Below, in pieces: positions 20,002 through 59,354 of a stretch of 64,000 nt of DNA (position 1 is its first letter; every line of letters starts with the position of its first letter). The position numbers and the translations under genes were made by a program. Origin of the DNA: Physcia stellaris (Eukaryota > Ascomycota > Lecanoromycetes > Caliciales > Physciaceae). The stretch spans positions 248,001 to 312,000 of the forward strand of contig JABSSW010000021.1 of the NCBI GenBank assembly GCA_018902385.1, in the 5' to 3' direction. Under the pieces are notes generated by a model. It had not been told where the DNA came from. It did no database searches and saw only the letters and a list, made by a program, of their open reading frames with translations.

Positions 20002-20446
20002 GTATGGTATACCTCCTCAACACGGGTCTTTCTTGGAAAGTCCCAACCCTGGAACCATTCCGAAAGTGCCCCATGTGCCGCTCTGCTAAGATCTTTGTAG
20101 AATCAAAGACGGACTGGATAGAGACTCGCGTGTTTCATTTCGGTGAGCTCGGTCGATGACACAAAGCCGTTGATAATGTGGATGATCACGCACAGCTATC
20201 TCCACAAGAATGACTCTGTTACTATCAAGCGGCTTGTCTGGAAATCTGAGTGCTATCTGCTGTCTCTCCTCGGCAGCGACTTTCGAACCCGAGAGCCAGC
20301 AGTAGGAACCTCGGCCAAAGACCTTCGTGAGTTTCATCAATCGGTTCCGGACAAGTTCAACGCCTTGCTACATTCTTAACGTTTATCCTTTTGCAACAGC
20401 CAACGCCATGCTCTACTAGACCAAGTAGCACGTCGAACGGATTGTC

Positions 20447-22839: not shown

Positions 22840-25800
22840 TGTCCTTTGGCATCAAATGAAGAAGAGCTCTTGGTAAAATGAAAGCCTGTTCTAGCAAGAC
22901 TATATGGATGAATAACTTATGAGCTATGAGCGAAAGTCGGCTTCAGATAGAACGTTGTATATTGAAGAGGGGTGAAGATGAAAGATAGACTGATGTAGAA
23001 TTTTTGGGAACAGTAGGGATATGGACAATATATAGATCATCCAGCCTCGAACGTTGATGGTAAGGTGCATGACTGCTTAACCATCATGCTAATCATCAGT
23101 TTAAACAGAAAGCTGCTGTCGAGAAACAAAAAGATACCAGAAGCTTGGTCCAGGTCATTGGAGCCTGGATGAGCTCGAAATGCCGAGAGACTAAATCTAG
23201 ACCTAGAACATTGAGTTGGAAGGGTAGACATGTCCGTTGGGAACGCTATGGTATTAGCTGAATGCTTAATTCATCCTCACGACGCCTTGGTTCGGCATTC
23301 GGGTCAAAACGCTGTTCAAAAACCTGAGGCTCTTGTTCTCGAAAGTTGCTTGCAATGCGTTTCTTTTGATGTGAGTGTATCAGATGCCTTAAGCCCCTTG
23401 TATCATTGATGGCTGCAACTTGCTCTGAGCTTGTCACTTCGTACAGCGTCTCCGTGCCGATGGTCCAAAATAGTTCAAATATCGAGGGTCTTGGTATTGT
23501 AAAGGTGTAGAATACTAATGGTTCTGGTCTAGTTAAAACAGCTAGGTATCGAGGCCCTATTGCAAGTTCTCTATGGAGGCCTTTGAGCGAACTCCGAGGC
23601 TCATGCTATGCAATTGACCATAGCTGTAGTGGCCCCACATGTTCCAGGGAGGTTTGTTTGAAGGTTGGTTCCATCGTTCGTAGATCTGATGCCATGAGAT
23701 AGACTCCTAGCGCTGCAGAAGTCCCAAAAGCAGAGGTGCATGCTTACCACGGCAGGAAAGGCATTACACAACAGGCGGTCTCCTTAGAAACCGAGATCGT
23801 AAAGCCGTAAAGCACTGCCACTCTCCTTTTTCCTATCCGTGAGCAGAGCTTGGCCCGGCATTGATGGCATTCCACCGAGAGTTGGTCGCATGGCTGTTTC
23901 AGATTTGCGACAAGACTCGGCGCGTTGTTTCGTCACCACGGTAACCCCAAACCCAAGGCATTCTTTCTGGTTGCTGCATGCTTCGAGCTTACAATCAGGT
24001 AGGGGCGAGGTAGTAAGTCATGTAGAAATTTGGAAGTTGTTGTGTCCGAAGAATCCGCAGAAGACAATGGAAGAGCGGAAAATCTATGAAGGGAAAGTAT
24101 AGCCGAGGCCACATGATCGGCTAGCTTTGCCAAGCCGGAAGCACATTTCTCCGAAGAAAAAAACATTTTCGTCCGAGGGATCCGCCTTTGTCTCATCCCA
24201 TCGCATTTGGGCATTGAAATTGGCGTGTGGTCCTCGTTGATTGTCTCCACCGTGATCTTCGATGTGCTAGGCAAGATGATACTATAGAGACAGAGTCGTC
24301 ATCCACACTGGTTCAATGAATTTTGAGCACACGTCTGATCTAGGCATCTTTGCACTGCTCTTTTCATTCTGTGCTCTTTCTTTCCCATATCAGAACCAAA
24401 TACTTTGACAGTCCAAATGCCTCGAACATGTCTGAGAGTCTTCAATGGAGAATGAGCTGCTAGGAAACATTCCAGGAGTACATTCCACCAGTGCCGTCGG
24501 AGGCTCCAAGCGTACTTCCTGAATCGACGTCTCCAGAGTCTGGCATTACGGCTCATCTTCGGGTTTTGACAAGCTGTTATAGCTTTGCCACGCCATGGAC
24601 AAGCCGTCCTCTCCCACGAACTGGTACCTGTTGGTGCAATACAAGTTTGCTTTCCCAGTTCATGCCCGCGACCTTTTCCCCGATCCCTACTTCCCTCTCG
24701 TGCGTCCACCTTTTTCCCGCCACTTCCTTTCACTACTCTTCGTTATCGTCCGTTCTAAGTTTGGGGCTCCAGTTCTCAAGAATATGGCTCGTCCCAGGCT
24801 CTCGAATATGCCGGCCATTGACCGCGGTAATAAGCAGGCGTCCATAGAAATATCAAGCTCCGTTTGTGAACGGATAAAAGGGACAGCAGAGGGTGTTGTC
24901 GTTGATGGTGCCCGAATTCTCGGTGCAGCCGGGGCTGAGTTTGCCACATTGGGGAGAGCGGGCGCTTGGGTCTCTCCTTGAGCGGCCAAAATTTACGGGG
25001 AGGGGCCCGTACGAGCTGCTGAAATACTGGCATTGGCATTTTGCAGCGTCCTGCGGTTCCTGGTGCGCGGCAGAGGCACTTTGTTTGCCCTGAAATCGGC
25101 GCCTTGAGGATTGACGAAGGCGGGTGTAAAGCCTCGACTTGAGTTGTCGGCAATCGCTCCTCGATCCGTTGCCAGCTTGACCTATCAGTCATCACGGAGT
25201 CAGTGTTTTGATGTTCATGATAACATAAAAATACTCACGTTTTTCCTCTCGGTGTTTTTTGGCAGACCGGACCAGTTGCGGTGTCTTAGTCAATCCCATC
25301 ATGTGAGACACTCAGGAAGACGAGAACACCCCAAGACGAAAGATATCACCTGTTGTGCTCCAGATCAGCATCATTGTTCGATCCAGATTGAGGGATGGAT
25401 AGCTGTTTGAAATATAACCGTCCGAAAGCGAGAAGGCTTTATTATGGAGCTGCTCACACCTCCAGTGCCTACGACCCCTACGGCGTGCCTCGACTTTATT
25501 CCAGGTCAACTACATGCGCAGAGTGCTGGTTACAGACTTCCTATCATATTGGCTCACCTGGACGACTAATGCGCTTGCTTGCCGCTAGATAAAAAGGCTC
25601 CTGTTCCCAAGTATGCGTGATGAAAGAGTCCGTTAAAGTGAATGCTAGGTGCATTATGAGGAATCCAGTGCTAGGCTGTCGAGCGAGTTCAATGCTCTAA
25701 GTTTTTACAGAGCTGGTAATTGCGTCGAGGGAGGTGACGAGAGAGGTGGTAAAAACTTGTTCTAGAAAAAACTTCAGTGTTGTAGGTATCCTCAGCCATG

Positions 25801-26038: not shown

Positions 26039-29000
26039 CTACCATCTCCTGTCATACCCATCGACGACCACCCGCAGCGACGCTACCTCGTCAAGGAGCC
26101 TCTCAGATCCAGCCCGCAGATCCAAAACCATCTTTGCCACTCTATCAACTCGTCTGCCCAAAGGCTTACCTGATGGTTCGTCTTGGGGCTGTAAACTCGA
26201 AACTCTAGCTCCTAGCTCTATCACCTCTTCGACAAGAGTGTTCATGAAATTGCCACTCTGTACGGTGCTGGCCGAAGGCTTACCCGATGGTTGCTCCTGG
26301 AATGGCGAGCTGGAGGCCCTAGGTGCCTCTTCGACAAGAGTTCCCTTGGGATTGCCACACAGTGCGGGTTCGGCTGAAGGCTCACCAAATGATTGCTCAT
26401 GGGGCGTTAGACTTGACACTCTTGATCCTAGATCCATTGTTTCTTCAACCAGAATCTCCATGCAGCTGCCACTCTGTACAGTACTAGCGATAGGCGTGGA
26501 AGGAGCGACAGGCCTTCTATTTTTGCTGCCTGCTAATTCTTCCTTACTGCTGTTAGTATCACCTTTGTCAGAGTAGGCTGGTTGCGAAGAAACGTCGTCG
26601 AAATTAACTTGGTGCGTGTCGGTTTCGAAGAGATTAGCTTGGTGGGAATCAACCTCGGCGGGATTTACTTTGTCCGAATCCATCATGGCGACATCGTTGC
26701 TCAGTTCGCTCAGTCCGGCGAAAGGAAGGCCAATGGGTGTAAGATCTACATCAATGGCGTCCTCGGGCATGGCGAACGATGCACTCAGAGAAGCTTCGCT
26801 ACCAGGATCGATTGATCGTCCAGGCGCTGTTTCTTCAGAGGTTAGATCAACAGGCACGGTGCAGTCCTGTTTAGATCTTTTTGGCACCGGTCTGCTACCA
26901 ATGTTATCGCGCTTTTGGGCATTTTTTGTTGCAGGCTTACAGACATCGCATTCCGTGTCTGAGGTCAAGCGTCGACTTCTCTTTTTTGCCTTTATCGCCT
27001 CTAGGAAGCGTTCGTTCCTTGTAGCTGCCTGCTCAGCTTCCCGTTTAGCATTTATCGCCTCCAGAACGAATCTCCTTTCGGGTCTTTCGGGATGCTCGAA
27101 CTCTGAGCCACTTTCGGAGCCAGAAGATAACGGAGTTGATACTATGGTACGCTTGTTCACATTATTTGCCCTTTGCCGAAGGTTGTATCGTCGCCCTATT
27201 TCCTGCCCGCTCGATGTGCGCATGGAAGCATCTTGAAGTTGATCAATTTGCAGCTCTTTCACCTCCTGGCCAAGAGAGGTTTTAGCCCGCAATGGTTTTG
27301 AGCTTCCCGTCCTTTTACGCTTTCGTTCGCTGTTCGAAGCAGTTCTGAGACTCTCATTGAGCGGAGCTTCGGGTACCTGACGGACAGGCAGGGCGTAAAT
27401 GAGGTCTCTGAGCCCTTTTCCCTGCCAGGGTTTCTCGGTCCAAGGATTATATTCTGAATTGCTTGGGTCGATGCTTTGGGCGTTTTCCGGGAGGTCATTC
27501 TCGACCACCTGCTGAGAAGGCTTTAGACTCTCCGGTCTGGATGTAATCCCGATATTTTCTCGGGTCTTTTTAGCTCCACCACTTGTCGGAATTAGGTCTG
27601 GGTCGTAGTTTGGAGAATCTGAGCTCTTGCTCGAGGAAGAATCACTGATATCTTCGTAAGCTGATTCGGCGTTTTTCGCTTGTCTATCTAATCCTTCATG
27701 CGGAGTAGGCAATCCGAGAGGCTCATTCGATTCCGACTCTCCAGCACATTCGCTACTTTTCTCGGATGTGTCTGCTTCGTGAATCAACACATCGAGTTCA
27801 TTCAATTGCTGTTCGTCCGAAGGCCGTAGTACATCAATCCATGTGTCATCGTTGGAGGTGTCTGACAGTCTTTTCGCAAATTCAGTATCACTCTCCATGA
27901 CATGTTCGGAAGAACTTTGGCACTGATTCGAGGCCACGTCTTGTTCATCTCGCCGACTCTGCTCGGCTCTAGCTTCTTCGTGGATCAAGGTCTTAAGGTC
28001 CTTCCATGATATGGAGTATGTTTCACCAGTCTTTGTATGGGTAACCGTGTATTCAAGGTGGTTCGTTGTGCTGCTGTTACTGCCTGCATCGGAGTCAGAG
28101 AAATTCTCCTGTGAAATGCCATCCTCGTCCTCATCAGATGGCTCTGCGAAACAGAAAGGCTTAGACCTCCTAGGACGCCCGCATCCTTGTTCGAGCCCAG
28201 CCTGCTCTCGGATCATCTCATCGAGTACAACTAGCGCATCATCCTCTGAATCTTCGTCGTTCTCGGACTGGAGCGCCGAGACTGCCCCTTCATCCTCTGC
28301 CTGCGCATTCGCGTCATTGCTAACAGACATTGTACGGGAAGCAAGGCGAGATCTAGGTGGTGTTGCTATTTGGCCCAGCAAGCGCTCAGGGCGGACTTCG
28401 AATTGATCCACATCCATAGCTGAGTCCGAAAAGTCTGGACCCACAGACGGTTCCTTCTCTCTATCCTCTCGATTCTGTCGATGTTGCAATGACGGAGGCG
28501 ATGGCGTACGCTGCACCCGCTTCCCATTGGCTGGAGCGAGAACATATTTCCGTGCGACAGCACTCGGCCAGGTGGGCCAATGTATCAATCTTGGATCGGG
28601 CGCCTCCGGTCCCGATATGGGCGCTCTTATCATGATCGGCTGGGGAGACAGCGGCCCAACAATATTTCTTGGCCCCGGTAATGGTACACGATTACCCGGT
28701 ACATCGCCCTTCTTCGGATCGATGAGGCCAGGCGTAGTACCCCTCGTGCTATTCTTCTGGAGCTGCTCAAGACTCAGCTTCTCACAGAGCTTCTCTGCTA
28801 AGCGAGCAGCACTTCCCCTACCGTACCAATTGAGTACGCAGAACGTTTTTCGGTGGCGACTTATCTTCCTGGCCAGTCGATTGCTATCGATATCGCTACT
28901 GCACATGCGGATGCCTTGCTCCGGCATCTGTCGCATGGCGATATCTGCGAATGAGACTCGGGGGTCGAGGCGGCGCCAGGCTTCCATGCGCCACCATTTC

Positions 29001-29618
29001 TCCGTGGAGCAGATCTGTGACGATTCGTTTAGCTGCAAAAAACTAGGAAGGAGGACAAAGACCTCATACCTGATCGGGAAGAATAGGAATATTCCTTAAC
29101 GGCCGCGCGTTTTCTGCCTGGTTGTTGAGAGGCCATCGCTCCATCACCGGATCTCCATCAGCAGTGACTTTGTAAGGAAGAGGTGGTTGACTCTTGGCCC
29201 AGGGCTTTTGCTCCTCAGGCTGTACAAGCGTGTACAATATCTAATAACCGCTGTCAGCGTTTTTGGTTCCTCTGTTACCATGGCAGGCTGTGCGCTTACA
29301 TCTGGAAGATTCTCAAGAGACCATTCAGCCTGGCTATGTCCCGTCAGCCCTCAGGAATAAGATCTACCTCTTTCTCTTGTCACACACATACCCAACGATG
29401 AAAGTAGTAACGTCTTCAGCACAGTGGCCCTGGGCAACATCACCTGGATAACCTTAGTGTGCATCACGGCCAAGATTTCGAGACTTACAATATTCCGTGG
29501 GATCTCCTGTGCGTCTACCCCTACGAATAGCATCCAGGTAGTCTGGCGTCTTGTCGCAATGAGGTATTGGGGGTCGCGCTCCCCTGGCAAGCTGTTGCCT
29601 CACGCGTCTAAGGCCCAT
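26039..29618 (-). CDS. Cluster paralog 1: 1120-aa TRGxxPGL-module protein with long disordered tail
   Basis: Five exons on the minus strand: 29618-29489, 29443-29392, 29333-29300, 29240-29070 and 29014-26039. Splicing gives DYLDAIRRGRRTGDPTEY, then EDVTTFIVGQ, AEWSLENLPDILYTL, MERWP and PILPDQ|ICSTEKWW. The same order of motifs is found in four neighbouring genes. The shared module ends at residues 217-226 (NSTRGTTPGL). The rest (about 880 aa) is low-complexity and acidic/Ser-rich, with basic clusters (KRKR, KKRSRR, PKRSKQ) that look like nuclear localisation signals. Its end has imperfect repeats of about 40 aa and an amphipathic final helix (RRVDRVAKMVLDLRAGSERL). I do not recognise the family. 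The first acceptor could instead lie 9 nt earlier (intron 36 nt); 45 nt is the more normal length. Likely nuclear; role unknown. Confidence 0.82.
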
Positions 29619-30563
29619 TTCCTCGGTCAGATTCCACGGTTTCTTTTTTCGGGCTTTGAAGGCAACAGTGTCTGGGTATAGGTATAATAATAAAATTAAC
29701 AATAAATGCTCTATAAAGCTCTCGATTAGACTTTGACCAGAGTAGGTGTGGGGAGGAACAGACTCTTCAATAAATAGTACTTCCACAGACACGGCACAGT
29801 GACTTGTTACTCACACTCCGGCCCAGTCATAGCGTTTTCACAGGTAGTCTGTGACAAGGGTTTCAGGGAGCCTGTAAGAAAGTCAATGATGAATGCTTGT
29901 GGGAAAGTCTGGCCTGGAAAAATCATACTCGACTGCGGCTTGCTTGAAAAGTCTGCTTCCGTAACAGCAGGCTTGTTACTTCAGTTCCAACAGCTTCAGC
30001 AGGCTCATGAATACGTAGCGGGGCTTTCCGTTGAATCCGACGCGGCAAGTGGTCACGTATCTTGGCGGATCTGGAATTGCATCTTCCGTGGCATCTCAGC
30101 TTGATGAACCCACCACAACGCTGGTGTATAGGCTCTTGGTAAAAGATGATTTCCTGAATCCGAGACACTAGCGCCGGGTGTTGCTACTCTGGCTGGCTTT
30201 GATGTACAAAAAGTCCCAGCCAGTGTAACTCTTCTTTCGGGGGCAACTGGGGGAAATGGTCATACAGACTTCTCAAGTATGATGCACAGAGTTCAATTGA
30301 TAAGTTAAAGTGTCTTGCATGCTAATTCGAGCGAAGGAGAATCATTATCCTAAAACCACTGGCATCTCTGCAAACAACAAGCTCAGCAGCTACACCCCTT
30401 CCTTCTCGAAAACTATCTCACGAGCCCTTTCATCATTCATCAAATCTCAAAGGACCACGCTCTAACATCTCCGGATCAGGTGCGCCCCCCGTCAGTTCCG
30501 GAAAGCGATGCATAGGAGGATAAGTAACAGTCAACCGAAACTGCTCCTCCGTCAACTCCGGAT
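29619..30563. other. Intergenic between cluster paralogs 1 and 2
   Basis: Contains the presumed promoter of paralog 1 (minus strand) and the 3' flank of paralog 2. Bases 30433-30563 hold a minus-strand frame that may be the true end of paralog 2 (see that entry). Otherwise nothing is seen. Confidence 0.4.
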
Positions 30564-31743
30564 TCAGCCACGCATCCCTGACCCTCCTCTCCTCGTCCGT
30601 AACCCCATCCCGCAAAAATCCGCCCACGCAGCCCACATGCCATCGGGGATGGGCACAGGAGCACCAAAAGCCCCACGAAAGTTGAATTCAGGGGAGGGAT
30701 GCCGCACGATTCTCGAGGCCGCTAGCACTGTCGACTGGGAAGCTCGTTCGACTCCGATATACATGTCCACGTTCGATGGCCAGGGGATACGATTCCCAGC
30801 TATTTCTCCCCTCCAAGGGTTGATCAAGCCTGGTACATAGCCTCTGGTGGAATTCATGAGCTCGGCGGTGGTGGGTAGTTGGTCACGGATTATACGATGG
30901 CGCTCGTCTGCCCAGTAGGCGCCGCTGTCACGGCCGGCGCAGATGTTATGCCAAGAGATGAGAGAGAAGGGAAGGCTGAAGCAGCGGTAAATGCTTGCAT
31001 CGAAGGCGCCGAGGTCGGAGACACGGCCTGGGAGGGGCATGCGCATGTGGATGTCTGACCAGGTGATGGCAGGATCGAGGCGGCGCAGAGCGAGGAGGAG
31101 AAGGGGATGTTCTTGGGTGCCGATCTACTTCGGGTCAGTAACTACTACCTACTCTCCCGAAGAATCTAATTCAGGGTCTATCAATGGGACTAGGAAATGA
31201 ATGCGAAAAGAAAGCAGAAAAGACAGGACGGAGAAAGCACAAAAGACAAGAAGAAGGCAAAAAGAGAAAAGTTTGAGGGAAATTCAAGGGAAGGAGGGAG
31301 CAACTAACAGTATTCATCCCATGCAAAATCGGGAAATACCTCATTTTCCGCGGCGCCTGCCCAGGCACAGGCCACCGCTCAGTAACGACTTCCCCATCCG
31401 GCGTCTTCATGTAGGGCACCTGTCGCTGGCGGAACTCCTGCCACGCGGCGAACGGCGACGGCAGCAGCGTGTAGAGGACGTTGGGCAGCTGGTCGGGACT
31501 CCAAGTCCATTGCCCGGCCTTGAAGTCCGTGACGTCGGCTGGACTGTAGCCTACCTGGCGAGGCGGGTCTGCGGGAATTTGTTAGCGGCACGGGGGGAAA
31601 GAGATGGGGAGTGGGGGATTGGGCTTACCGTAGGCGGTCGGCATGCCGGGCCATTCGGTGCAGCAGGCGGCGATGTATTCTGGTAGGGTCTCCCAGTAAT
31701 AGACCTTACTCTTGTCTGCACGGAGAGGACCGGCACTGGTCAT
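30564..31743 (-). CDS. Cluster paralog 2: short TRGxxPGL-module protein
   Basis: Exons 31743-31629, 31568-31309 and 31124-30564 on the minus strand, 311 aa. Exon 1 ends in a split codon after Tyr, as in all the paralogs. Exon 2 reads YSPADVTDFKAGQWTWSPDQ, then LPNVLYTLLP, TERWP and YFPILHG. Exon 3 opens IGTQEHPLLLLALRRLDP, and NSTRGYVPGL lies at 216-225. Two introns present in paralogs 1, 4 and 5 are missing here, so exon 2 is fused. The tail is only about 85 residues and has no basic cluster. After residue 287 another frame (30636-30433: WLNPELTEEQFRLTVTYPP) looks more protein-like than the annotated end. A frameshift or missed splice near 30640 would extend the protein. Intron 2 (184 nt) is pyrimidine-rich on the coding strand. 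Confidence 0.78.
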
Positions 31744-34066
31744 CGTGATAGCGCGAGGGTTTTTGGATACTTGAAAGAGACAAGCAAGAGCTAAAGATGC
31801 TGGAGGATTGTGAAGGGATGGGTGTGTGAGAGTGGAAGGACTATCTATGGGGCTGTCTCGGAGGCCACTGGGATCTATGCTTTTAAGACCGCTAAAGTAG
31901 ATGGAACTGTCAAGACCTTAATAAAAACATGCTCAAGGGAGCAGCACATACGTCTTTCACGTTTGTGATCCTGGCGTGATGGCGCTGTCTATGCTCGGAT
32001 GATGCATACCACGTAAGTGATGCTTGATGATGGACAACAATGAAGACCTCGTGTCCTGCGGGTCGTGCATCACATAGACAGGGTGAAGGGATGAGGTTGG
32101 ATGAATGATGTGGCTTTGTCTGGTTTGCTCTTTCCTTGGGAGGATGTTGGGGGATAGCTAGGCTCTGGAGCCACGAAAATGCCAGAGGATTGTTACCTAG
32201 AAGTCTTCTTCCTGCGCTGTTCATTGTGGCTCTGAATCATAATACAAGGGGTGATCTTGGGATGACTACACTGGCAACCTCTGACTCTAATGAACCTGAG
32301 ATCCTCTATGATGAGTCTTCAAGACATTCATAATATGTCTCGGTCACAAAAACTACAGGACCAATGTACCAATCACCCACAAAGTGATCATCATAACGTG
32401 TGACTGGGCCCAAAGATCCTTGTTTCGTAGTCTTGCAAAGTGCTTGGATGTGGATAGGTGGTCAAACAGTCTGTTACACAAGGCTCTCCTACACCATGCG
32501 GGTGAGACATAAACCATACACCTGATGATGATGTCGGGTTCTTCTTGCCGCGTTCCATAGCAGTATCAATCCTACATTCCTGAAATGATACTGAATCTAG
32601 TGGACACTACGAAGCTTTGTTTCCTTCGTAGTACCACTATAGCACCAACCAGAAGTACTCTTTTTCTCATAGGCCTCGAACCCAAGTCCGAGACCGCGCA
32701 GCCAATCTTTGAGCTCGCCTGATTGTTGACCGGGTATCTCAGACTCCATGGTCTACTGATTATCCCCATCCAGCGCTACCTAGACGGACCAGTTTGTCGT
32801 CTTTCAAGCTCTCCTGGTCCCACTGCTTATGGTCCCTGCGACTTCTAGACCCACGGTTGTACGCAGCGGAAATCAGCCACACGAAAGCATTCGTCCTCCA
32901 GCTCTGATACCTTTCTAGGCTGTCTCTTTCGGGGTCATTCCATGGACAAGAAGCTGTACAGACTCTCCAGGAGAACTCGATGTCGTTGTCCGTTCTCAGC
33001 ACTCTTCAAGATTCTCGGTCTTGAGATCTATCTTAGGTCCGCGTAATCGCTGAATGATCTTATTCTTCTTCTATCTCCTGGAGTCTCTAAGCTAACTCTT
33101 GTGGTCTTGAACTTGGGGTGGACGTTTGACTTTGGCTTGTACAGCTTGGATTCCGCGAAATGATTGATGGAAGTATCGCTGCAGGTAGGTAGGTAGGTAG
33201 GTAGTACAAAGATAAGCTTCCTTGAATGTAGGAGAGAACCCGAGTACTATGCGCTTGAACAAGCCGGGCATGTAGAAAAGGTAAGGCTTCTTGGTATGTC
33301 AGTGACCGTCAGCTACTTCAGTCCGAACCTAGGTTGTTAGGTAAGAAAATTGCTCTTACTCAGACTCTTTATTGATTTGTTTCTTCGCTGGGGTTTGCTT
33401 CTCCTGTTCGGTTTTTGGATGTGTGTAGAGGTCTGAAAAGTCGACCGAGCCTGGATTGAGCCCGATCTTGAAAAATAGAGAGCATCATCCAACACTAATA
33501 CGCTTGAAATACGCTAGACTTTGGAAACATCCGACTTTGTAGACTTTCCTAGCTTTGATGGACCGGGAGATCCTTTTAGACCAGTCAAACGTTGATTAGA
33601 ATTATTTTTTTGTCTGCTATATACTAGATACCGAGGTGATTTTCTCTTCTGTCCCCTGTTCAATTGACCAGACGCGTGACATTTACCTGTAATGATTTCG
33701 ATTAGTGTGTCATACTATACCGCATAGAAGACACCATGGTGACCGGCCCGATTCTTGCCCTATCACCTCGTTGCTAACACGCAGGGCTCCCTCGTGAAGC
33801 ACCATAACATTGTCCTGACCTTGATTCTAAGCATACATAACAGCAGCAGCTGCTAGCTGGCAGACATTGTGCTTTAGTCTTATGCTTGGTTTCGACACCA
33901 GAGTACCTCTCAAAATTGTCAGTACATTGTTCTGAAACATCTTCCGGGCAAAACACCAGAAGCAGCTGTTACGACCTGGGAGACACCACCTTACATCTCT
34001 TGCTTGGCTTAGACCATAATACCAGCCATCCTATTGCGACAAGGAATTCGAGAGCTTATTACAACA
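31744..34066. other. Divergent intergenic region between paralogs 2 and 3
   Basis: 2.3 kb between the start of a minus-strand paralog and the start of a plus-strand paralog, so it should hold both promoters. A short (ggta)n run lies at 33183-33204. No open frame longer than about 100 codons with any likeness to a protein was found. Confidence 0.5.
33183..33204. repeat. Tetranucleotide microsatellite (ggta)n
   Basis: About five and a half tandem units of ggta in the divergent intergenic region. Simple repeat, likely polymorphic. Confidence 0.9.
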
Positions 34067-37024
34067 ATGGCCGCACAACAGCAAGACAACCTTTTTTGGG
34101 ATTGGGAGCGCAATCCTATTTATAGTGAGGCCTGCAGGACGCAAATTTTACCAGGAGGGTCTACTTCCTACCGTAAGTAGCCAGGAACAGCTACTTGTAT
34201 ATCAAACTAACGAGACGCGTAGATGCCTCGCGGAATGTCGGTGTTTCGCCGACCGATAGAACTACGTTCATCGCAGGGTATGTTTTCATGCTAATTCTGT
34301 CTTTCCTTTTGTGGACGTTTTCTATGAGCGTGAGGTCAAGAGGAGCAGCTCTCGGAGTTGACTAGCCCACTTATCTCTGTGGTCAAGTTTTGAATGAAAG
34401 AAAAGACGTCCTCTGAGAGGAGAGGGAACCTTGGCACTAGAGAAGTGGATTGACAATTCAAGTCCATTTAATTATTCCCGTACCAGCTAGCCTCTGTGCT
34501 TTGCATGGACATGATAACTTCGGAGAACGACAGACTGACAATTACTCAGCCAAGCAGATTGGGCTCCCATGAATCTGCCTGAGATACAATACATCCTCTT
34601 GGCCCCTGGAGATCGAGAATACTTCAAACGAAAGGCTCTCGAGGAGCTGAAGGATGCCAACGGTCAGACAGTCTATGAGCAGTGGCCACAGCAGGGCCAA
34701 GCAGCTCGACCGCTGTTAGACTTCCCTGTGCTCCCACGCCAAGTAAGTCACCATTTACCATGAGCGTGTTATCAGAAATTCCTAACAGAACACTTCAGGT
34801 TGGCTCCCAGGAGTACCCGTGGATCATCGACGCATGGAGGAAGCTTGATCCTCGAATCAAGGGAGAAGATATCCTCATGAGGATGGAGCCTGCCGGCCGT
34901 CCTGCAAAGTGGAATACCTTCCAGCAGCGACTTGTGCGACTGCGGCCCGATTTTAGCATTCTCTCCTGGCACCAAACCCGGAGCGACGGCGCCAACAATT
35001 CCCCGAGGGAAAACATTCTCGCCAATCTGACTCACGCACAAAAGGAAATGAACACAACGCGAGGGACCACTCCGGGTCTTGTAGTCCCTGAATACGGCGA
35101 GGACGGAGGCCGGATCCCGCTGCCCAATCACGACGATAGTCGTGGGTTTGGGCGCCAATTTCGAAATCGGCAAGGGCAGAACACTGCTGCTACCGTCAAC
35201 AACAACACTCCCGCCAACACTACCGCAAACACCATCACCGCGGCGACCTCTACCACCAACATGGCGAACGACTCAGTAAACGATCAGGCCAGTGGTTCCA
35301 TCGCTACCGCAAATACCATCACTAACACCGGCGCGACCTCTACTACCAACATGGCAAACGACTCAGTAAATGATCAGGCCAGTGGTTCCAACACTGCGGC
35401 TGCACCTAGTGCACCGCAAAAACGTCGTCGAAGGCCTGCAAAGAAGAGGTCCAAGCGCACTGCCAATCGTCACTCAGAGATCAATGAGGAAGGCGAGACA
35501 ACAGAAGAGAGCTCAGAGGACAAAGACGAGGACAGTCCTCCTCGCAAAGCTGTCCGAAGGTCTGGCGATACAACTACCTCGACAACCGCTTCAGTTCCAG
35601 CACCAGCAGCCCAAACAACAAACAGTAATCGTCGTCAAACCATCGGGCATGTTCAGCAGGTAAACACTCGGCGGAGTACCGGTCGTACCTTGGCTCCGAG
35701 ACCAACACCATTCGACGGAATGTCATACAACAATCACTCTCAAACTCCCGGGCAAGCCCAGCATATGAACATCCAGCACCCTACAGCTCGTACCGGGCCC
35801 CCGCAGCAGTCATTAGCGAGCGACTTTGTTGATCCACGCATTGCACCATACGCAGCACAACAAACTACAAGAGATCCATATTTTATGGATCGTCTTATGG
35901 GACGTAGATCTACGCTTTCGACCGGTGTGATCAACCGCAGCGGTCTCCGTTTCACCGACTCGCCCGCGGGATACCGTCCCTTCACTGCAATGGATGCCAG
36001 ACAGGAGCGGAGGGCACCCCCGGAATTCTATGCAGCTTTGGCAGCAGCCGAGGCTGAGATCGATGGGAGGAGCCATGCTGATCTTGCGAGAGCCCGGAAC
36101 AGTCTCAATCAGATGGGCGCTCCAAGTGGCTATGGACATAATGGTCAGCTAGGCAGCCATAACATTGGCGTTCAAAGTGGCTATGGCCATACTGGTCAGC
36201 TAGGCAGCCATGATATTGGCGGTAACCGAGCCCAGGGATTTGCACAAGCTCGCACCGCGCAAGCTCCTACGTCTCAGGTTCAACCACAGAACCAGGGACA
36301 GACTTCTAGCGCAGGTCGTCTTCCCAATGTTCAAATACAGCCCAATTTACAGCCTCGGCGTGCTCATCATACCGATACTACACAAGGAGCGCCAAATACT
36401 GGTTCTGATTTTGCGCGTCAGACTAGGTTTGTGCAACGTCCACAGAATGTTGCATACCCTGGCTTACTAACGCGATACCCTCAAGCAGGGCCGCTGGACG
36501 TGGCTCCGATGGTTCAAACCCAGCACCGCCCTCTTAGCGCGCATGCCGTTCGCGAGTTGCTCGCGCGGAGGATTATATATCCGGTTCACAGAAATCCACC
36601 AAGATCGAATATCGGTCGACTAATGGACGAAGGGTATGCCCAATACCTCCAGGACCAAGCGATCCGCGCGCGCATTCAGCGAGGTATTCCAACGGTATCC
36701 GAGGCTTATAATTTCATCCAAGGCTTGCCACAGCACTTTCCACCCCAAAACCGAGCTTCTGCTGCAGGTACTACTATTGCTTCTCCACCTGTCATCCCTG
36801 CTCAGCAGAGTAATTCTGTACAGGAGCCGCCTCAACGGCCTACCCCAGCCAGTACCCAAATTCCTATTTCTTCTCTAATTGATGTTCCTGCACCAGTCTT
36901 TCAGCAGGATGTTCCAGAGCCGGTCTTTCAGCAGGATGATTCTGCGCAGGAGGTAGTTCACCTTATCACTATTTCCAAAGAACAGAAAGATTCTGCAAAG
37001 CCTTGCCGAGCAAAGTCTGTCTGA
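34067..37024 (+). CDS. Cluster paralog 3: 859-aa TRGxxPGL-module protein with Gln/Asn/Thr-rich tail
   Basis: Exons 34067-34172, 34223-34277, 34550-34742 and 34799-37024. Splices give YHASRNVGVSPTDRTTF, then IAGQADWAPMNLPEIQYILL, YEQWP and FPVLPRQ|VGSQEYPWI. The intron found after LPN/LPD in paralogs 1, 4 and 5 is absent, while the intron before it is expanded to 272 nt. The module ends at 203-212 (NTTRGTTPGL). The tail is disordered. It holds a doubled block (TSTTNMANDSVNDQASGS twice), a basic cluster at about 322-338 (KRRRRPAKKRSKR) that should be a nuclear signal, an acidic patch, a doubled SGYGHxGQLGSHxIG unit and a Pro/Gln-rich end (PVFQQD twice). Family not recognised; nuclear localisation is inferred. 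Confidence 0.84.
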
Positions 37025-37820
37025 GGTCCACAAGGGGCATCGCAACACTTGCTCTCAGCTGAAAAGATCGCGGTTCAAGCTATCTCAACACTCCATGAGC
37101 AGCAGAAGATTCGAGACTACTTCTCGTCAACTTGGGTGGTGGTCTCTAATAATTGCTTGTTGCTTGGCTTGCCCCCTGAAGGCCTCTAGGAGGCTTTGAA
37201 AGAGAATATTGTGCAGGGACCTTTTATGTAATTTCTTTCATCTTATTTCTTCAATGGTTCCATCAATCTTTGCTCGGGAAGAATGGGCAAGACAGTACCA
37301 GAAGTGGCAGGATTGCAGCACAAACAACAAAACCCCTGTTGCAACTATGACAATGTACATTAGAAAATAGAAAGCGTGCAATTGACTCCTCTCAACAGCT
37401 TTTCGAGCCTTGCTTTGTTATTCAATGTGTACTGTGAACCCGTGATTGGAGTTGGTATTGATATTGTCCATAGACCCCGGAAATTGGCCAGTACCCCCTT
37501 TTTTCTGGAGGTGACAAATCGCAGAGTCCCCAAATCGTTCAACACAGTCGCCCCGCCCCGCCACCCTGGATTTTTGAAGCTATTCCCGATGAAAACCCTG
37601 GACAGAAATCTCGCTAGCGCGCACGACTTGGTCTTCCTGCCACCGGGCTCGCGACTCGATTCTCGCACACAAGTTCTTGCTCCACCAGAACCACAATCAC
37701 CATCAGTCTCGCTTGTACCTTCTGGCATCCTTTGAAAGCTCTTTATTTTGCTTGTATTCATTTACTCTGTGCTTTTATTGCGCTATACGCATAGCTGCTT
37801 CCGCTACCTGTCTTACTACC
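37025..37820. other. Intergenic between paralogs 3 and 4
   Basis: About 800 nt with the 3' UTR of paralog 3 and the promoter of paralog 4. A pyrimidine-rich stretch just before the ATG at 37821 is typical of fungal promoters and leaders. No gene seen. Confidence 0.5.
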
Positions 37821-39764
37821 ATGCCTCGCGCCCCTAAGATTCTGCCTAACGGAGATCGTGCACCAATTGACATGGCGGACCGCACTGAGTACGAAAATTC
37901 GCTCGACTTCCTTGAAGCAAGCGGTGCTCTCGCGCGACCTGGAGACCCGAATCGATATCGTAAGTAGTTGCTTCCGTCCTGGTACATAGCCGCGCATGTC
38001 CTAACTTGGCCTGCAGTTGTGCCCCGTGAAGTTGGCAGTTCGCCAACCGATGTTACTTCCTTCGTACCAGGGTAAGTCAGAGCTGTTGAGCTTTCAGCGC
38101 TTTTTGGAGTGGTACTAAACGTTGCGACAGACAGCAGTGGAGCTTGGACAATCTGCCGAACGTATGTCTTGTAAGAAATCTTGTCTTTTGATCCCTGACT
38201 TACACCCCATTAGATCCTCTACTACATCAAACCACCACCAGGATGGGCTGATTATAAGAAGAAAAGGATCTACGCTAAGAGGGACGCGTCTGGTCTCCCT
38301 GTCTTGGAGCGCTGGCCTCGCCCAGGGAAGCCACGTAAAGCATTGTTCGACTATCCTTGTCTTCCCGACCAGGTAAGAACCAAATACTCGTCCCATCGCT
38401 ATCAATAGTTGCTAACGAGAAACCTACAGATCGGCACAATGGAGCATCCCCTCATGCTACTGGCATGGCGAAGACTCGAGCCCTCGGCTACCTGGGACGA
38501 CTTCCTCGTCCGCATGGAAGATGGACCGAGCAAGCCTGCCAAAGGCAATGTACTCTCGATGCGCATCAGTCGCATGATGGACGACTTCTCCATCATCTCC
38601 ACCTGGCATGGAACCAAAGACTGGTCTCGCCCGAGCAAAGACCAACAGAGACGCTTGGCCAAGATATCCCTGGCAGCACAAGGGAACAACACAACCAGAG
38701 GCTTTACACCCGGTTTGGTTGATCCATCGCGAGGAGAAGCTGGAGGACGTGTTCCACTACCTAAGATGGCTGAGAAGTCGTGTGAAGGACGTGGTCACGC
38801 TTGGAGTTCACGGGTTTCGGGCCCTACGCCAGCCGCGCGGAAGGCGGCTGAAGCGGATGAAGAAAGCGACAGCGACAGCGACTTGTCGAGCCTTTCAACC
38901 ATTACAGATATCTCGTCTCCCAAATCCGAGTCGCATGGCTCATTGTACGAATCCCACGGCTCTGATTACGAGTTCCACGACTCTGAGTATCTTGAGTCTG
39001 TCAGTTCCGACCATCAGTCAAGTTCCGCTGGTCAATCATCCTCCCAGGATCGCGAAGCAACCCCAGTCCTACGAAGCTCCGATACACAGTCTTCTGCATT
39101 GTCCGACAATGATCATGAGCCTTATCCGGGAGTTCAGCCCGCTTTTGACTACTCTCACCCCAGTTACTGGCCAGGCTTCAGTATGAAGCATGAGCCAAAC
39201 TCGGAGCTACACTCATTCGAGTATTTCCAACGCCGAGTAGAAACAACGAGCTATTCATCCCCATCTGAACGCTATCCGCCCCAGCATCAGAACCGATTCT
39301 TGCCTCAGCAGCACGACCGTTTCTCGTATTCTCAAGGCGCACGTTACCAGCCATATCCAACCTCAGGCACAGCTTTCCAACGCCAGCAGCGCTTTCGTCC
39401 AGATCTAAGGCTCCAGATCCCAGATATCCAGCAAATTGCTCCCAGACTCGACTACCACGCTCAGACCTACAGGGCAAGTCCAAGCGCACAGTCCTTCTCC
39501 AATCGACCTGGACCCGTTTCCAGCTACAGCAGCATGGGCTACAACAACCAACCTCGTTATGCTGGGTTCCCTTCTAACTTCCAGCAGTCTTTCGACAATC
39601 GCGCATTTGCTGATCCTAGGACCTACCATCAGGCTCCATATTATGAGCCTCGACAGAATTATCAAGAATCTCATCAGGACTATCCAGCCATGGGCAATTT
39701 TGCGTATGCGGCATTCCCGACTGACTACCGCCAGAACGACTACTATTATCCATCACCGTCTTAA
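37821..39764 (+). CDS. Cluster paralog 4: 572-aa TRGxxPGL-module protein with Tyr/Gln-rich prion-like tail
   Basis: Exons 37821-37959, 38017-38071, 38131-38161, 38214-38372 and 38430-39764, the full ancestral five-exon pattern. Splices give ARPGDPNRYLVPREVGSS, then PTDVTSFVPGQQWSLDNLPN, ILYYIKPPPG, LERWPRPGKP and YPCLPDQ|IGTMEHPLML. The module ends at 215-224 (NTTRGFTPGL). A Ser/Asp/Glu-rich linker follows (SDSDSDLSSLSTI and later). The last 170 or so residues are rich in Tyr, Gln, Pro and Ser (YQPYPTSG, NYQESHQDYP, DYYYPSPS), the composition of prion-like, phase-separating domains. There is no classical nuclear signal of the kind seen in paralogs 1, 3 and 5. Family not recognised. Confidence 0.86.
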
Positions 39765-40055
39765 ATGGAGATTGGATATAATGGCTCAGCCTTTCGTCGG
39801 CGCTTTTTCGCCTGTACTTGGAATGTTTGCTCACCTTTGCTATCTCCGAAATATCTTCAGTATCCCATCACGCATCTCGACATGCAATTTTCCACCATCA
39901 CGCCTAGTGCCTCCAAAATATCCTCAGTATCAACTGAGGCATTTGGCGCAGATTTTTCCAAGATGGCACCTGTTACTATCTGGCCGCCGATGGCCGGCGG
40001 AAAGATGTTAACTTAACGACTTTTCAATTCCCTTGCTTGCTTGTTAACAGGCTTT

Positions 40056-40196
40056 CAGCTTATTTGCACATTTTCTGTGAGAGCTGATTTGCAGCTTTCC
40101 GGGGGGAGCTTATTTGAAGTTTTCCTGTGGGAGCTTCCCTGTGAGAGCTTACTTGCAGCTTTCCTGTGAGAGCTTATTTAGAGCTTTCCTCTGAGA
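40056..40196 (+). repeat. Degenerate tandem repeat of about 25 bp
   Basis: Six imperfect units built on 'agcttatttgcagctttcctgtgag' variants with spacing near 25 nt, one unit shortened. It lies between paralogs 4 and 5, 0.3 kb after the stop of paralog 4. Confidence 0.7.
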
Positions 40197-40309
40197 CAGA
40201 TCACCCATCTGTCATCCATCGCTCGACGCCAAAATTTGGTGTGCAGCGTGGCATGAAATGTTCTGTTTCTTTGCATGTACCACAACCTGTTCGCAGCATG
40301 TACACTCCT

Positions 40310-40550
40310 GCTCTACACTGAGTCATGAAGGGATATCTCGCTTGTCATCGAACGAGCAGGGAATCAGCCTTCCCAGAACCCATGTATCTTAGACATTAGC
40401 TTTAGCTTTTCAAACTCACCTCGAACACCAAATACCCCCCCAAAAGACTGCTCCCGTACGCTCTGCGCTCTGCATGGAGTCATAAGGGATATCTCGCATG
40501 TCATCAAACGAGCACCTTCAAACTCACCATCGATGCCAAATACCAAATCC
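40310..40550. repeat. Imperfect direct duplication, about 160 nt apart
   Basis: Shared blocks in the same order: gagtcat-aagggatatctcgc at 40321 and 40478, gtcatc-aacgagca after each, and tcaaactcacc with ccaaata further on (about 40410 and 40517). This looks like an old tandem duplication upstream of paralog 5. Confidence 0.7.
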
Positions 40551-40981
40551 CTCCCAAATTTCCCCTCTCCCTTTTCTTCCTAAATACAACTGTAGACTCA
40601 AATTCAGCCCTTTTCCAAAAATGGGGATTTCTTGTGTGGCTTTTTGGGGCACATGGGCAGTCTCCCCAGAAAAGTGTCACCCCCATGGAAACCCCAATCA
40701 CAGATTCATCCGCGCTCAACACCCAACACCTCTATGTTTAATTTGACGCGTATGACAACCGCCCCTCACCTGCCAATTTCGACTCTGTGCTTCATAGACC
40801 CACGACCGGCCGTGACCGGCAACATCCCTCCCCAAGCACCTATCTATCTTCTCCCATATACTCATATCCCAGTGCACCAGTATCCTAGTGTTTTACTATT
40901 GCTGCACGAGCTTAAATCCCAGAAAGCTGAAAGGTCGAGGGCGGAAAAGTCGAGAGTAAACATATAGCATAGGCAGGGAGA

Positions 40982-42938
40982 ATGACGAACACGACAGCAG
41001 TAGGATCCACCTCGGCCTGGTACTCTGATCCGGACTTCGTGGCCGCGAGGCAAAGCGCTGTGCCTGCTGGGGGGGTGGGGGATTATGGTATGTTTATGTT
41101 TATCCCTATACCTGTGATGCATTTCTGGTTTGGGGCTGTTGTTGTGGGGAGGGGGGAGCGGTGCCTGTATCCTAGTATCTGCCATTGAAAGAAGGTTGGA
41201 GTGAGAGGCAGAAAGGGAAAGAAATGGAAAAGGGAAGAAAAGGAGATGGAAGAGAAAGGGGAAATAAAAGAGGCTGACACAAACTCCAGTGGAAACGCCG
41301 CCGGTAGGTCGAGTCCAGGAGGACGTGACATCCTTTATCTATGGTATGTTCTCGCTGGATTGCCTTCCCTCCTCTAAACCCTCCAAGCCCAGATGGGAAA
41401 AGGGGATAAAGACAAGCTAGGGAGCTGCTGCTAACGATCCCCAGGCCAAGCAACGTGGTCGAATCGGCATTTGCCTAACGTAAGATCTGACCTCTATGGC
41501 TCTCTACTCCATTCTCCCTTCCTCCAAGGCTGAAACGGGAGCTGGAGAGCTTCTTTTCCCAATCACCGATTGCTGATGAATTCAAGATCCTATACCGTCT
41601 ACGCCCGAACGCAGACTGGGAATTTTTCAAAGCCGACGCGTTGCCCTACCAGAAAACGGATGGGCAGGGACGGCCGATGTACGAGCGGTGGCCGACAGAT
41701 CCAACAAACCCGAGGCCGCTTTTGGATTTTGAAGTTCTGCCTGATCGGGTATGTCTCCCTTATTCTTTTGCTCTCTGATGTTTCGTCGCTACTCTCTTTC
41801 TACCTTGGTTTGAGGTTTTTCCGTTCGGGCGCCCATCCTCATATTTATATCCACTACTACCCACAACCCTACAGCCAAGCCAAGAAAACCCAGCTGACTA
41901 TCCCCCTCCAGATCGGAACCCAAGAACACTGGTGGCGCTTCGAAGCCTGGCGTCGCCTCGACCCACGCATCCGCTGGTCCGACATTTCCATGCGCATTGG
42001 CCCGCTTCCGCACCGTCCCTCGGACACACTGCTCCGCTCCCGCGTCTCGAGGCCTCGGATCCAGTTTTCCATGCTGAGCTGGAATACGGGGTCGAGGCAG
42101 AAGGCGACCAATGATGCTATTTTGAGGGCGCTGTCGCCGGCGCAGGTGAGGGCGAATACGACTAGGGGGAGTACACCAGGGTTGATTGATCCGGTCCTGG
42201 GGAGGGCCGGCGGGAGAATTTATCGGGTTGGTGAGGATGAGAGCCATGATACTGAGTCTGAGCAGGAGCAAGGGGAGTCGGGGAGTGAGAGCGAGGATGA
42301 TATTGATGATCTCATAGTCAACGGCACTTGTGGGAAGGTTGACTCGTTGAATGCTGCGGATGGTGGTGATGGCGTTAAAGCAACGTCGCAAGAAGTGGAT
42401 GTCGATGGCGGGGAAGAAGAGATCAAAGATGACCTGGAGAAGGCGAAGGATACAGTTGAGGAGTACGAGCAAGCTGACGAAGACAAGGACGAACAGAAAG
42501 AGCACCGAGAAAAGGCACAAGAAAATGATAACTCCAACGACGAATGCCATGACGCATCGGAAGGTCCACCGCTCAAACGCCGTCGAACAGAATCGTCACA
42601 AGAAACTCCTTCCACCACAAGCGCCACGGCAGCAGATTCTACCGATGGCTTCGAAGAAGATCCTCCTCTATCGCGGTCCCCACTCGGCACCCCAATTTCC
42701 AGAACACCAAGCCCTGACTCTCACATCAAGCACGCTGGAGGCGCTCATGGTCCCCTTGGGGTAAGCACCAATTGAGCTCGAAATACTATTTATGTACCGT
42801 CAACTTATCTTCTCTCAGCTACCCGCCGACAGTAGGGATTTCGGTCCTGATGGCAAGTACCTTCCAGATAGCAATATTGGATGGCAGATCAATGAGACAG
42901 CGCGATATGGGAAGGAGAGAGACAGGGAGAATGAGTGA
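40982..42938 (+). CDS. Cluster paralog 5: 441-aa TRGxxPGL-module protein with acidic tail and extra 3' exon
   Basis: Exons 40982-41087, 41290-41343, 41445-41479, 41587-41748, 41912-42760 and 42819-42938. Splices give VQEDVTSFIYGQATWSNRHL, PNILYRLRP, YERWP and EVLPDR|IGTQEHWWRF. Intron 2 is in phase 1 here but phase 2 in the other paralogs, a one-base slide. The module ends at 201-210 (NTTRGSTPGL). The tail is highly acidic (EQEQGESGSESEDD, DDLEKAKDTVEEYEQ) with a basic PLKRRRTES near its end. The sixth exon is joined by a 58-nt intron with good sites and adds LPADSRDFGPDGKYLPDSN to a stop. Without it the protein would end at 42775. Introns 1 and 4 are long for this genome (202 and 163 nt). 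Family not recognised; probably nuclear. Confidence 0.84.
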
Positions 42939-43573
42939 AAGCGACGATGTCCGGATCCTCGTGGTCCCTACTGAGGTCATGTTGCGATATTGTCTATGGG
43001 TGGATGCCCGAAAGCTCATATGTTTAAGGACTCGCTATGTTGCATGCATACGTAATGTCTGAGGCGTTTACCAAAGGGAAGGTAGCACTAGATAGACTTT
43101 TCCGTTGTAAAAGAAGATCTTGCATGATCCTAGGAGGTATGATAATGTCTCTCCCACCGAAAAGCGCAGCGATTCTCAATTGGATTGCATTCGTAGACCA
43201 TTATAGCTGACATGTTATTCTTTCGACTTTTCTAAGTACTCCAGAATACCACGCAGAGTGGCATCAATCCCCGATGTTGGTTTACTCTCTGATGTGCAGC
43301 TTCAAACACACGTCACAAACCGAAGAGATGTGTCTAATTCTGCCTCTAGTGTTGATCTCATCGGTCATTATATTCCAGAATCTCTAGTGTGGTTGAAGTG
43401 ATTCCAGAATTTCGGAAAATGGCCGCAGTACAATCCCAACGTGACTCGGCTATTGCCCAACACCCTAGATCGTGCTTCACTAGAGGTGTTTGTGAGCCCC
43501 GTGCTGGGACAATAGCATCTTACACTTAGCGCCGAGAATCGGGTTCTTATTGTCGGTTACTGCACCCCATAAA
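42939..43573. other. Intergenic, no supported gene
   Basis: About 630 nt between paralog 5 and the next hypothetical gene on the same strand; presumed 3' UTR and promoter. Nothing else seen. Confidence 0.5.
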
Positions 43574-45142
43574 ATGCCTCTGGTCATTCCAAAACCTCTT
43601 CCCCAAATTTTCAGTATTCTTCAAATTTCGAACATTGTACTGAGCGCACCCATAACCAGAAATTCAGTCATGGGGCTTTTCTCGGCTCTTCTCGACCAGC
43701 TAGAATGGAACGATGTTAATCATGCTCCGCGCTCAAATCAAGTCTCGAAACCCTCTCAAGGCACTACGAACCCAAGTCTTACAAGCATATACCTTCACAA
43801 CAATGCGAAGCGCCCTTCCACATTTCAACCACCACGTGCTCAGCGTCAACAGATATTTACGCAAATCGAAGCTGGCAAATCCCGGGCAAAAGCTCGTCGT
43901 AAGCGAAAAGCAGCAGAAGCAGTAGATGGTGAGGAGAAGGTACCGAAGAAGAGAAAATTCCGAAAACCAGAACAGCATTCCAAATCAGATGCCACCCTGA
44001 GCCACACTGTAAACTCTCATAGTCCTGGACATCGAAGACAGAAAGATTGCGGAAAGGACAAGTCCAAGAAAATTTCGAAGCGCGGAGGCGTTGCTGGCTT
44101 GCTCGAATATCGAGAAGGGATGATATACAAGCCAGGTCTATCAGCGATACCAGACTTGATATCTATGACTTCTCGCCGGTCGAAGGTGTTCGGCTCTTCC
44201 GATCCCAAACACACTCCGTATGTGCCGCAGCCTCGGTCTACTAGCTTCGGTCCGGACACACAGGTTCAGAGGCTCAGCACGTACTCAGAGGCTGCAGCTT
44301 CGGATACCAATCAAGAGCTTAGTATTTATGATCTGATCATCGAGCGAGCAAACAGTAAGAAGACCAAAGCTGCCACGTCCGCCGAGATACTAGCTTCGAT
44401 GTTCGGGAAAGCTCGGAAAGTTGGCCCAGAAACACATCTTCCTTCTAAGACGAAACGACTCGTTGGCACAGACATCGCCCTCCTCCCTTGTACCCTCCTT
44501 GAGGAGTTGAAGACGCGCCAAAGGAGTCCTTTAATTGCGGGAGACGAACATGTTTATAACACAGCCTTGAAACAGGTAGAGTATGATAGAAACCCAATCG
44601 AGGAGCTGTGGCTTCATTATGCTGCCTCTGGTAGAAACCCGGAGCTACCTCCCGTGACAGCATCTGGGGTGATGCGGCGCATGAAGTTTATCAACGCTGA
44701 TAGAGTTTTGCCACCAATTCCCGACGTGGTGAAGTCTCATTATGCTCGGAGCACGGCGAATTGCCACCACAGAACGCACGAAATTCAAAACCGCAAGATT
44801 CGGAACGGGACTTCACGCGATGCTATTGGGAAGGGTTGTGAGTGCTTCAGGCCGTCACGAACCAACCAGTTTGATCAGCCTTCGCGTCAGGAAGAACTAG
44901 ATAAAGGCGCACAAGAACCACAAGAAGGCGGACAACTTCTCCATACGCCCTGCGTGCAAAAGCGAAAGCGCGAAGGTGAGGAACCAGATTTTGGTGATTG
45001 TGGCAATGGGGTTCTTGTGACACGGCAGGCCAAGAGGGTTCGCCGCAAGAGGCCCATATCACCACAGAACATCGCGGCGTTGGTCTCCTTAAGCCTTTCC
45101 AACTGGAAGACGGATACTATCGTATCAAGGCCAAAAGCCTAA
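43574..45142 (+). CDS. Hypothetical basic, probably nuclear protein
   Basis: Single open frame of 522 codons. The first in-frame ATG is 43574 (MPLVIPKPL); ATG 43670 (MGLFSALLDQLEW) is an equally good start and gives a cleaner N-terminus. I do not recognise the family. Visible features are a bipartite-looking basic region (KARRKRKAAEAVDGEE followed by KVPKKRKFRKP, residues about 105-132), a central part that seems folded (SIYDLIIERANSKKTKAAT, SAEILASMFGKARK, IEELWLHYAASGRNPELPP) and a second basic tail (QKRKREGEEP, AKRVRRKRP). All of this points to a nuclear protein. It follows the five-gene family on the same strand but lacks its TRGxxPGL module. An overlapping frame to 45252 could mean a missed 3' splice. 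Confidence 0.62.
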   Translation: MPLVIPKPLPQIFSILQISNIVLSAPITRNSVMGLFSALLDQLEWNDVNHAPRSNQVSKPSQGTTNPSLTSIYLHNNAKRPSTFQPPRAQRQQIFTQIEAGKSRAKARRKRKAAEAVDGEEKVPKKRKFRKPEQHSKSDATLSHTVNSHSPGHRRQKDCGKDKSKKISKRGGVAGLLEYREGMIYKPGLSAIPDLISMTSRRSKVFGSSDPKHTPYVPQPRSTSFGPDTQVQRLSTYSEAAASDTNQELSIYDLIIERANSKKTKAATSAEILASMFGKARKVGPETHLPSKTKRLVGTDIALLPCTLLEELKTRQRSPLIAGDEHVYNTALKQVEYDRNPIEELWLHYAASGRNPELPPVTASGVMRRMKFINADRVLPPIPDVVKSHYARSTANCHHRTHEIQNRKIRNGTSRDAIGKGCECFRPSRTNQFDQPSRQEELDKGAQEPQEGGQLLHTPCVQKRKREGEEPDFGDCGNGVLVTRQAKRVRRKRPISPQNIAALVSLSLSNWKTDTIVSRPKA

Positions 45143-54153: not shown

Positions 54154-54277
54154 GCGCCTTGTTCACGCAAAGACCTTCCTTTGCCTACCTTATCTGGCAT
54201 TCGACTATCACGAATGCGCCTTGTTCACGCAAAGACCTTCCTTTGCCTACCTTATCTGGCATTCAACTATCACGAGA
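54154..54277 (+). repeat. Two tandem copies of a 62-bp unit
   Basis: gcgccttgttcacgcaaaga begins at 54154 and again at 54216, with near-perfect identity through ggcattc and actatcacga. It lies just outside the AT-rich block. Confidence 0.9.
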
Positions 54278-59340: not shown

Positions 59341-59354
59341 TTGATTGAATTTCA

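Follow-up and report, generated by a model that had tools for sequence, protein, structure and literature searches.

An undescribed domain family of two fungal classes and its five-gene cluster in Physcia stellaris

Gene models of the cluster

The window analysed here is a stretch of 64,000 nucleotides from Physcia stellaris (contig JABSSW010000021.1, positions 248,001 to 312,000 of the forward strand), and between its positions 26039 and 42938 lie five neighbouring genes, A to E, which encode proteins sharing an N-terminal module with a TRGxxPGL string. The five window genes are one family. Rebuilding of the gene models from the DNA, with outer ends placed at the coordinates of the initial annotation, reproduces its two minus-strand and three plus-strand copies, and all five models have an ATG start, stay in frame, and carry GT donors and AG acceptors at their introns.

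Gene A (26039-29618, minus strand) encodes 1120 residues in five exons (29489-29618, 29392-29443, 29300-29333, 29070-29240, and 26039-29014). Its module occupies about residues 1-250 and is followed by a long tail with four stretches rich in lysine and arginine (KR-rich). Gene B (30564-31743, minus strand) encodes 311 residues in three exons (31629-31743, 31309-31568, and 30564-31124) and has a short tail. Gene C (34067-37024, plus strand) encodes 859 residues in four exons (34067-34172, 34223-34277, 34550-34742, and 34799-37024), the third of which joins 34550-34583 and 34584-34742, two segments that abut and read through; its tail carries KRRR and KKRSKR. Gene D (37821-39764, plus strand) encodes 572 residues in five exons (37821-37959, 38017-38071, 38131-38161, 38214-38372, and 38430-39764). 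Gene E (40982-42938, plus strand) encodes 441 residues in six exons (40982-41087, 41290-41343, 41445-41479, 41587-41748, 41912-42760, and 42819-42938), and its acidic tail includes KRRR. The last intron of gene E is the least certain one, and the frame without it stops at 42775.

The first module intron (phase 1, after a Tyr codon) and the last module intron (phase 0) are common to all five genes. The second is in phase 2 in A, C, and D, is shifted by one base to phase 1 in E, and is absent from B, and the third (phase 0) is found in A, D, and E only, B and C being without it. Five lichen proteins that were annotated separately (P0001, P0002, P0004, P0007, and P0008) cover 83-88% of the spliced E module, and at the level of sequence the proposed splicing is supported by them.

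Conservation of the module

All ten pairs of modules match each other in BLASTP with 35-42% identity and E-values from 5e-27 to 2e-52, whereas the best E-value of shuffled modules (n=500) is 0.005. The alignment of the five modules has 41 invariant columns. The claim that five neighbours share an ordered motif module is therefore borne out by these matches between in-frame models, and so is the claim of a conserved N-terminus with free tails, as the best E-value between tails is 0.12. The motif strings listed in the initial annotation fared less evenly. In all five genes, literal matches are confined to the exon-1 Tyr and N[ST]TRGxxPGL[IV], and most of the other strings hold as consensus forms: gene C has DRT for DVT, EQWP for ERWP, and LPRQ for LPD[QR], the last of these motifs is lost in gene B, and GGR[IV]PLP is literal in genes C and D only. 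As a consensus, the ordered module, consisting of N[ST]TRGxTPGL and an EAWxRLDxRI...DIxxR core, is present in all five. The corresponding string of gene B reads YVPGL and has no Thr before PGL.

Predicted architecture and charge of the domain

The N-terminal globular domain comprises about 160 residues after a variable lead and is followed by a fast-changing tail. The predicted core helices are xEAWxRLDxRI, DIxxRM, and an Arg-rich third helix, xLQxRxxRFRxxF; a further helix comes next, and then an almost invariant strap, N[ST]TRGxTPGLIxP...GGR[IV]PxP. The AlphaFold2 model of the Aspergillus member P0195 has a predicted local distance difference test score of about 95 over residues 1-160, with helices at 56-65, 71-75, 86-99, and 110-125, and the model of a lichen member shows the same three core helices.

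At six P0195 positions (64, 68, 77, 97, 136, and 153) arginine occupies at least 97% of 111-112 rows, and at positions 58, 92, and 95 about 80% of rows have lysine or arginine. Three of these nine Arg-type positions (92, 95, and 97) fall in the third helix and two (136 and 153) in the strap, the remaining four lying elsewhere. The Arg-rich third helix is kept in most rows of both near and distant groups, its Arg pattern being weak in genes B and D. Invariant or nearly invariant acidic residues (E60, D66, and D73) stand beside conserved arginines. The median core charge is +7 (126 cores), and the window modules range from +8 in A and +7 in D through +2 in B and +1 in C to -5 in E. The tails of A, C, and E carry KR-rich stretches, D carries one within its module, and gene B has none. 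By a simple hydropathy scan, all five proteins lack a strongly hydrophobic leader and any membrane-like stretch, and no N-terminal signal peptide is indicated, the highest mean hydropathy of 11-residue windows starting in the first 25 residues being 0.83 (gene B).

Searches for a known domain or fold

A profile search and a structure prediction of the module had been proposed in the initial annotation, and the profile searches and the models of two relatives agree with its statement that no named family matches. None of the five modules has a Pfam match up to E 10. Among 112 relatives scanned at E 0.01, 110 are without a match and the other two have one weak, unrelated match each, and nothing exceeded the cut-off in two sets of ten relatives and ten reading frames of distant members. 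The PDB sequence search with one profile returned eight sequences up to E 1, none of which was accepted; the best of them, at E 0.0075, aligns profile positions 175-305, taken as mostly tail, and was rejected. Of two other profiles, one gave nothing up to E 1 and the other a best E-value of 0.098. Fold searches gave no credible PDB match for the lichen-member or the P0195 model, all matches being taken as noise, and likewise the P0195 model against a viral structure library gave a best E-value of 2.8 and a highest TM-score of 0.31 on a 71-residue target. No paper on this NTTRG-type family was found in the open-access literature searched, judged by listings, titles, and the starts of abstracts, and four module strings are absent from the open-access texts searched.

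A label of a known domain comes from UniProt, where the Aspergillus members P0126, P0147, P0149, P0167, and P0186 are named 'Clr5 domain-containing'. The family might accordingly be a divergent Clr5 or another helix-turn-helix domain of a known type which narrowly escapes profile methods, and the predicted three-helix core with its basic third helix would suit such an origin. However, the Pfam model of Clr5 (PF14420) matches none of the five modules, none of the five Clr5-named members up to E 1, and none of the 112 relatives at E 0.01. When the family was compared by hhalign with five Clr5 domains from this genome, taken from 5 of 13 genomic places with exons joined by eye, the probabilities were 0.1, 0.3, and 0.4%. 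On these tests, Clr5 membership is rejected. The unit is moreover 160 residues long, with conserved parts flanking the helices on both sides, and we regard a missed helix-turn-helix relative as improbable. The Clr5 names without Pfam backing are possibly propagated automatic names.

Other members in the genome

The window belongs to a 714 kb contig (C21) of a genome of 44 Mb in 147 contigs. Members were searched for with the gene E core, an Aspergillus-like composite, and a distant paralogue. Eight more distant members are located on C21 near 96, 120, 124, 133, 162, 181, 216, and 220 kb, about 54-178 kb away from the five of the window, which are at about 274-291 kb. Profile comparison of the window type with the distant type, some rows of which were joined by eye, gave a probability of 99.7 and an E-value of 2e-25 and so unites the two types. 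Two C21 loci have weak matches in the distant-paralogue search, with E 0.0017 for the one at 133 kb and E 0.43 for the one at 216 kb; both were kept since the motifs appear in order in their translations, and a place on C26 (E 0.48, Aspergillus-like composite search) was dropped as its translation is without them. In an earlier motif scan of the genome, 9 places were found against 5 in the reversed control; genes B and E were real among them and the rest were dropped as chance.

Off C21, C50 has one locus, and C46 has a copy of gene C that is partial and damaged. The count is 15 loci within the source genome, 13 of them on C21, for which the figure of 6e-22 is descriptive only, tandem copies not being independent. 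On C21, the array is longer than the window cluster, which forms one of its ends. Beside gene A, at 24996-25181 on the minus strand, lies the relic of a sixth family member. It is matched by profiles A2 (E 3.9e-6) and A7 (E 3.1e-5) and is absent from the matches of profile A5, and only the end of the module is readable, the recognisable part being limited to NSSRGFTPAFVNP ... VPLP.

The C46 copy (L014, about 136214-136411) is 90% identical to gene C over 276 bases and, as seen in translation, shows damage in the part of the module before this stretch. The differences amount to 23 silent and 4 replacement codon changes (3, 1, and 23 at the three codon positions), and therefore purifying selection has probably acted on the gene C module through most of the period since the two copies split.

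Distribution and age of the family

Searches of protein databases with a profile of the five genes and with a second profile scored only the 8000 candidates sharing most words. The five-gene profile matched 88 proteins. An organism name is given in 21 of these rows, 15 from lichen-forming fungi and 6 from Blastomyces, Ascosphaera, and Aspergillus. The lichen genera are Variospora, Lobaria, Seirophora, Dirinaria, Flavoplaca, Heterodermia, Villophora, Cladonia, Gallowayella, Ikaeria, Polycauliona, and Xanthomendoza; Heterodermia and Variospora are Lecanoromycetes by taxonomy. The second profile, built from 11 proteins of the Aspergillus, Paecilomyces, and Onygenales kind, gave 154 matches, of which the 120 listed have E-values from 1e-117 to 1e-59. 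Each organism-named row among these 120 is from a Eurotiomycete genus, and no Penicillium or Talaromyces name occurs among them. A search with the distant type gave 13 proteins, none of them organism-named. At least 202 distinct proteins are found across the listed matches of the first two profiles. No row of the three match lists carries a precomputed Pfam domain, and the relatives are deposited as hypothetical, uncharacterised/uncharacterized, or unnamed proteins. The nearest named relative of gene E is from Heterodermia, with 68% identity over 68% of the query, and P0012 and P0006 are among the relatives of E.

These searches show a real but undescribed family and domain in two fungal classes, and the candidate put forward in the initial annotation, for which no Pfam, PDB-sequence, or fold relative was found, is upheld. 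Restriction to one lineage is ruled out by the matches in lichen fungi and Eurotiomycetes. Being a multi-gene family limited to certain lineages, it belongs to a known kind, and the novelty lies in the domain alone.

A tree was made from 76 hand-chosen rows of 190 usable cores (from 215 fetched proteins and the five of the window) and rooted at its midpoint, where the lichen and Eurotiomycete members split with 100/99 support. Gene E groups with P0006 (Heterodermia), P0010, and P0012, and gene D with P0014, P0016, and P0023, P0014 and P0016 being close. Gene B, which has the longest end branch, stands beside the D group (99/92), gene C is weakly placed beside the B/D group (83/49), and gene A is with Heterodermia P0020 (82/66, weak). 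Since A to E fall in different branches, they look like old paralogues, and a recent tandem burst is rejected on the tree. Neighbouring members, recognised by consecutive locus tags, are present in Dirinaria (Q9191_003578/003579), A. hancockii (BBP40_006313/006314), A. ambiguus (204659/204660), A. affinis (KD926_006544/006545), and A. hiratsukae (CNMCM5793_008656/008657). Together with the tree branches of A to E, these neighbours suggest that the clustering of family members is probably old. The initial annotation had called such tandem expansion typical of fast-evolving accessory families, and the separate branches and the constraint on the gene C module speak against this view, so that its interpretation as a whole is upheld in part.

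Two further explanations were weighed. The array could be the debris of a selfish-element family whose product was kept, in line with the damaged copy on C46, the relic beside gene A, and the freely diverging tails. Against such domestication stand the multi-intron structure held in common, the codon constraint between gene C and its copy, the neighbouring members annotated in Aspergillus and lichen fungi, and the lack of any mobile-element domain in the members scanned with Pfam, and we hold it to be very improbable. Effector-like accessory proteins acting outside the cell or in symbiosis would fit an array of paralogues with free tails in a probable lichen fungus. However, none of the five proteins has a strongly hydrophobic leader, the gene C module is constrained, and the same family is found in Aspergillus and Onygenales, which are not known to form lichens; this explanation is the least credible of those considered.

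Proposed function

Since Arg-type positions lie in the third helix and the strap, tails are KR-rich, and no hydrophobic leader is present, we tentatively propose, at somewhat under an even chance, that the proteins are nuclear, nucleic-acid-binding regulators with a core predicted as three helices, of which the third is rich in Arg, and with free tails. Nuclear location, nucleic-acid binding, and regulation are all inferred from sequence and model features. The proteins would act in the nucleus, and three of the five tails carry basic stretches resembling nuclear import signals. The domain would contact nucleic acid via the Arg-rich helix and the strap, the divergent tails may recruit different partners, and the old paralogue array could then amount to several regulators that make the same type of contact and differ in their outputs.

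Several points weigh against this proposal. The family resembles no DNA-binding family by sequence (Pfam and PDB) or by fold, and its loop between helices 2 and 3, at about ten residues, is longer than that of a canonical helix-turn-helix. The module charge is small or negative in B, C, and E, B and D show a weak Arg pattern in the third helix, and stretches resembling nuclear localisation signals are common in disordered tails. The four Arg-type positions outside the third helix and the strap may simply hold the fold.

The main rival explanation draws on some of the same points. The domain may be a protein-protein interaction or scaffold module, for example of a chromatin or RNA-processing complex, which makes no nucleic-acid contact and whose conserved Arg and Trp residues serve to stabilise the fold or to bind a partner peptide. 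The missing likeness to known nucleic-acid-binding folds and the low charge in C, E, and B agree with this, and E60, D66, and D73 could pair with the adjacent conserved arginines. On the contrary, the many conserved Arg positions, the median core charge, and the retention of the Arg-rich third helix in most rows of near and distant groups are not what a scaffold would suggest, and we consider such a role rather unlikely, though a serious contender. The nucleic-acid-binding proposal can also be taken further, to a new binding domain, of a fold absent from solved structures, that would serve as a small regulator pair in Eurotiomycetes and, in lichen fungi, would have multiplied into a chromosomal array with one contact domain and many outputs, possibly linked to the lichen way of life. 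This extended form is speculative and we view it as doubtful.

Many Aspergillus species and lichen fungi carry the domain; its fold is predicted with confidence, and no solved structure matches it significantly. This marks a gap in fungal annotation, and the proteins so far deposited as hypothetical could receive a common name and be tested as one group. Should the domain bind DNA, a class of regulators would be added. Lichen fungi are hard to manipulate, and an easy model such as Aspergillus would then offer a handle on their gene control.

Other features of the window

Just downstream of gene E, positions 43496-45142 of the plus strand contain an open frame of 548 residues with basic stretches and no Pfam match up to E 0.1. 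In the open frame at 19446-20102, a unit of about 21 residues (HQCIDVDEDGIIQELEDPE and variants) recurs in tandem over most of the length, and the overlapping frame on the opposite strand is repetitive too.

An AT-rich stretch extends from 54451 to the window end at 64000, with a guanine plus cytosine content of 22-31% in 500-base steps. Its 9550 bases contain no CpC/GpG, the last of which starts at 54404, and few CpT (37) and ApG (68), whereas CpA (786) and CpG (553) are kept. The stretch looks like the product of repeat-induced-type C-to-T mutation in CpC and CpT contexts and not in the classical CpA context. The TpA/ApT index is 0.37-0.43 over 56001-64000, and the usual index would miss the stretch. 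A CpT signature is described for transposons of other ascomycetes in passages of two papers (PMC4352252, PMC7882544). Just before the AT-rich block, about 60 bases are doubled in tandem at 54150-54277, as judged by eye.

Comparison with known systems

The Clr5 domain (PF14420) resembles the NTTRG-type domain in being fungal and in having a short helical core with a conserved Trp, and it shares the label in some UniProt names. In contrast, the NTTRG-type domain has about three times the length of Clr5 and includes the TRGxTPGL strap. In Myb/SANT and other homeodomain-like helix-turn-helix domains, three helices follow one another much as in the predicted core, and the third is likewise basic. 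The NTTRG-type domain differs from them in its longer loop between helices 2 and 3, its extended conserved flanks, and the absence of a significant PDB match by Foldseek or sequence. Among the closest known systems are the uncharacterised Aspergillus, Paecilomyces, and Onygenales proteins (for example P0121, P0122, P0035, and P0091), which have the same domain, free C-terminal tails, and neighbour pairs in some genomes. However, these Eurotiomycete proteins form a clade separate from the lichen members, and one or two per species are suggested among the matches listed, compared to the thirteen loci on the single contig described here.

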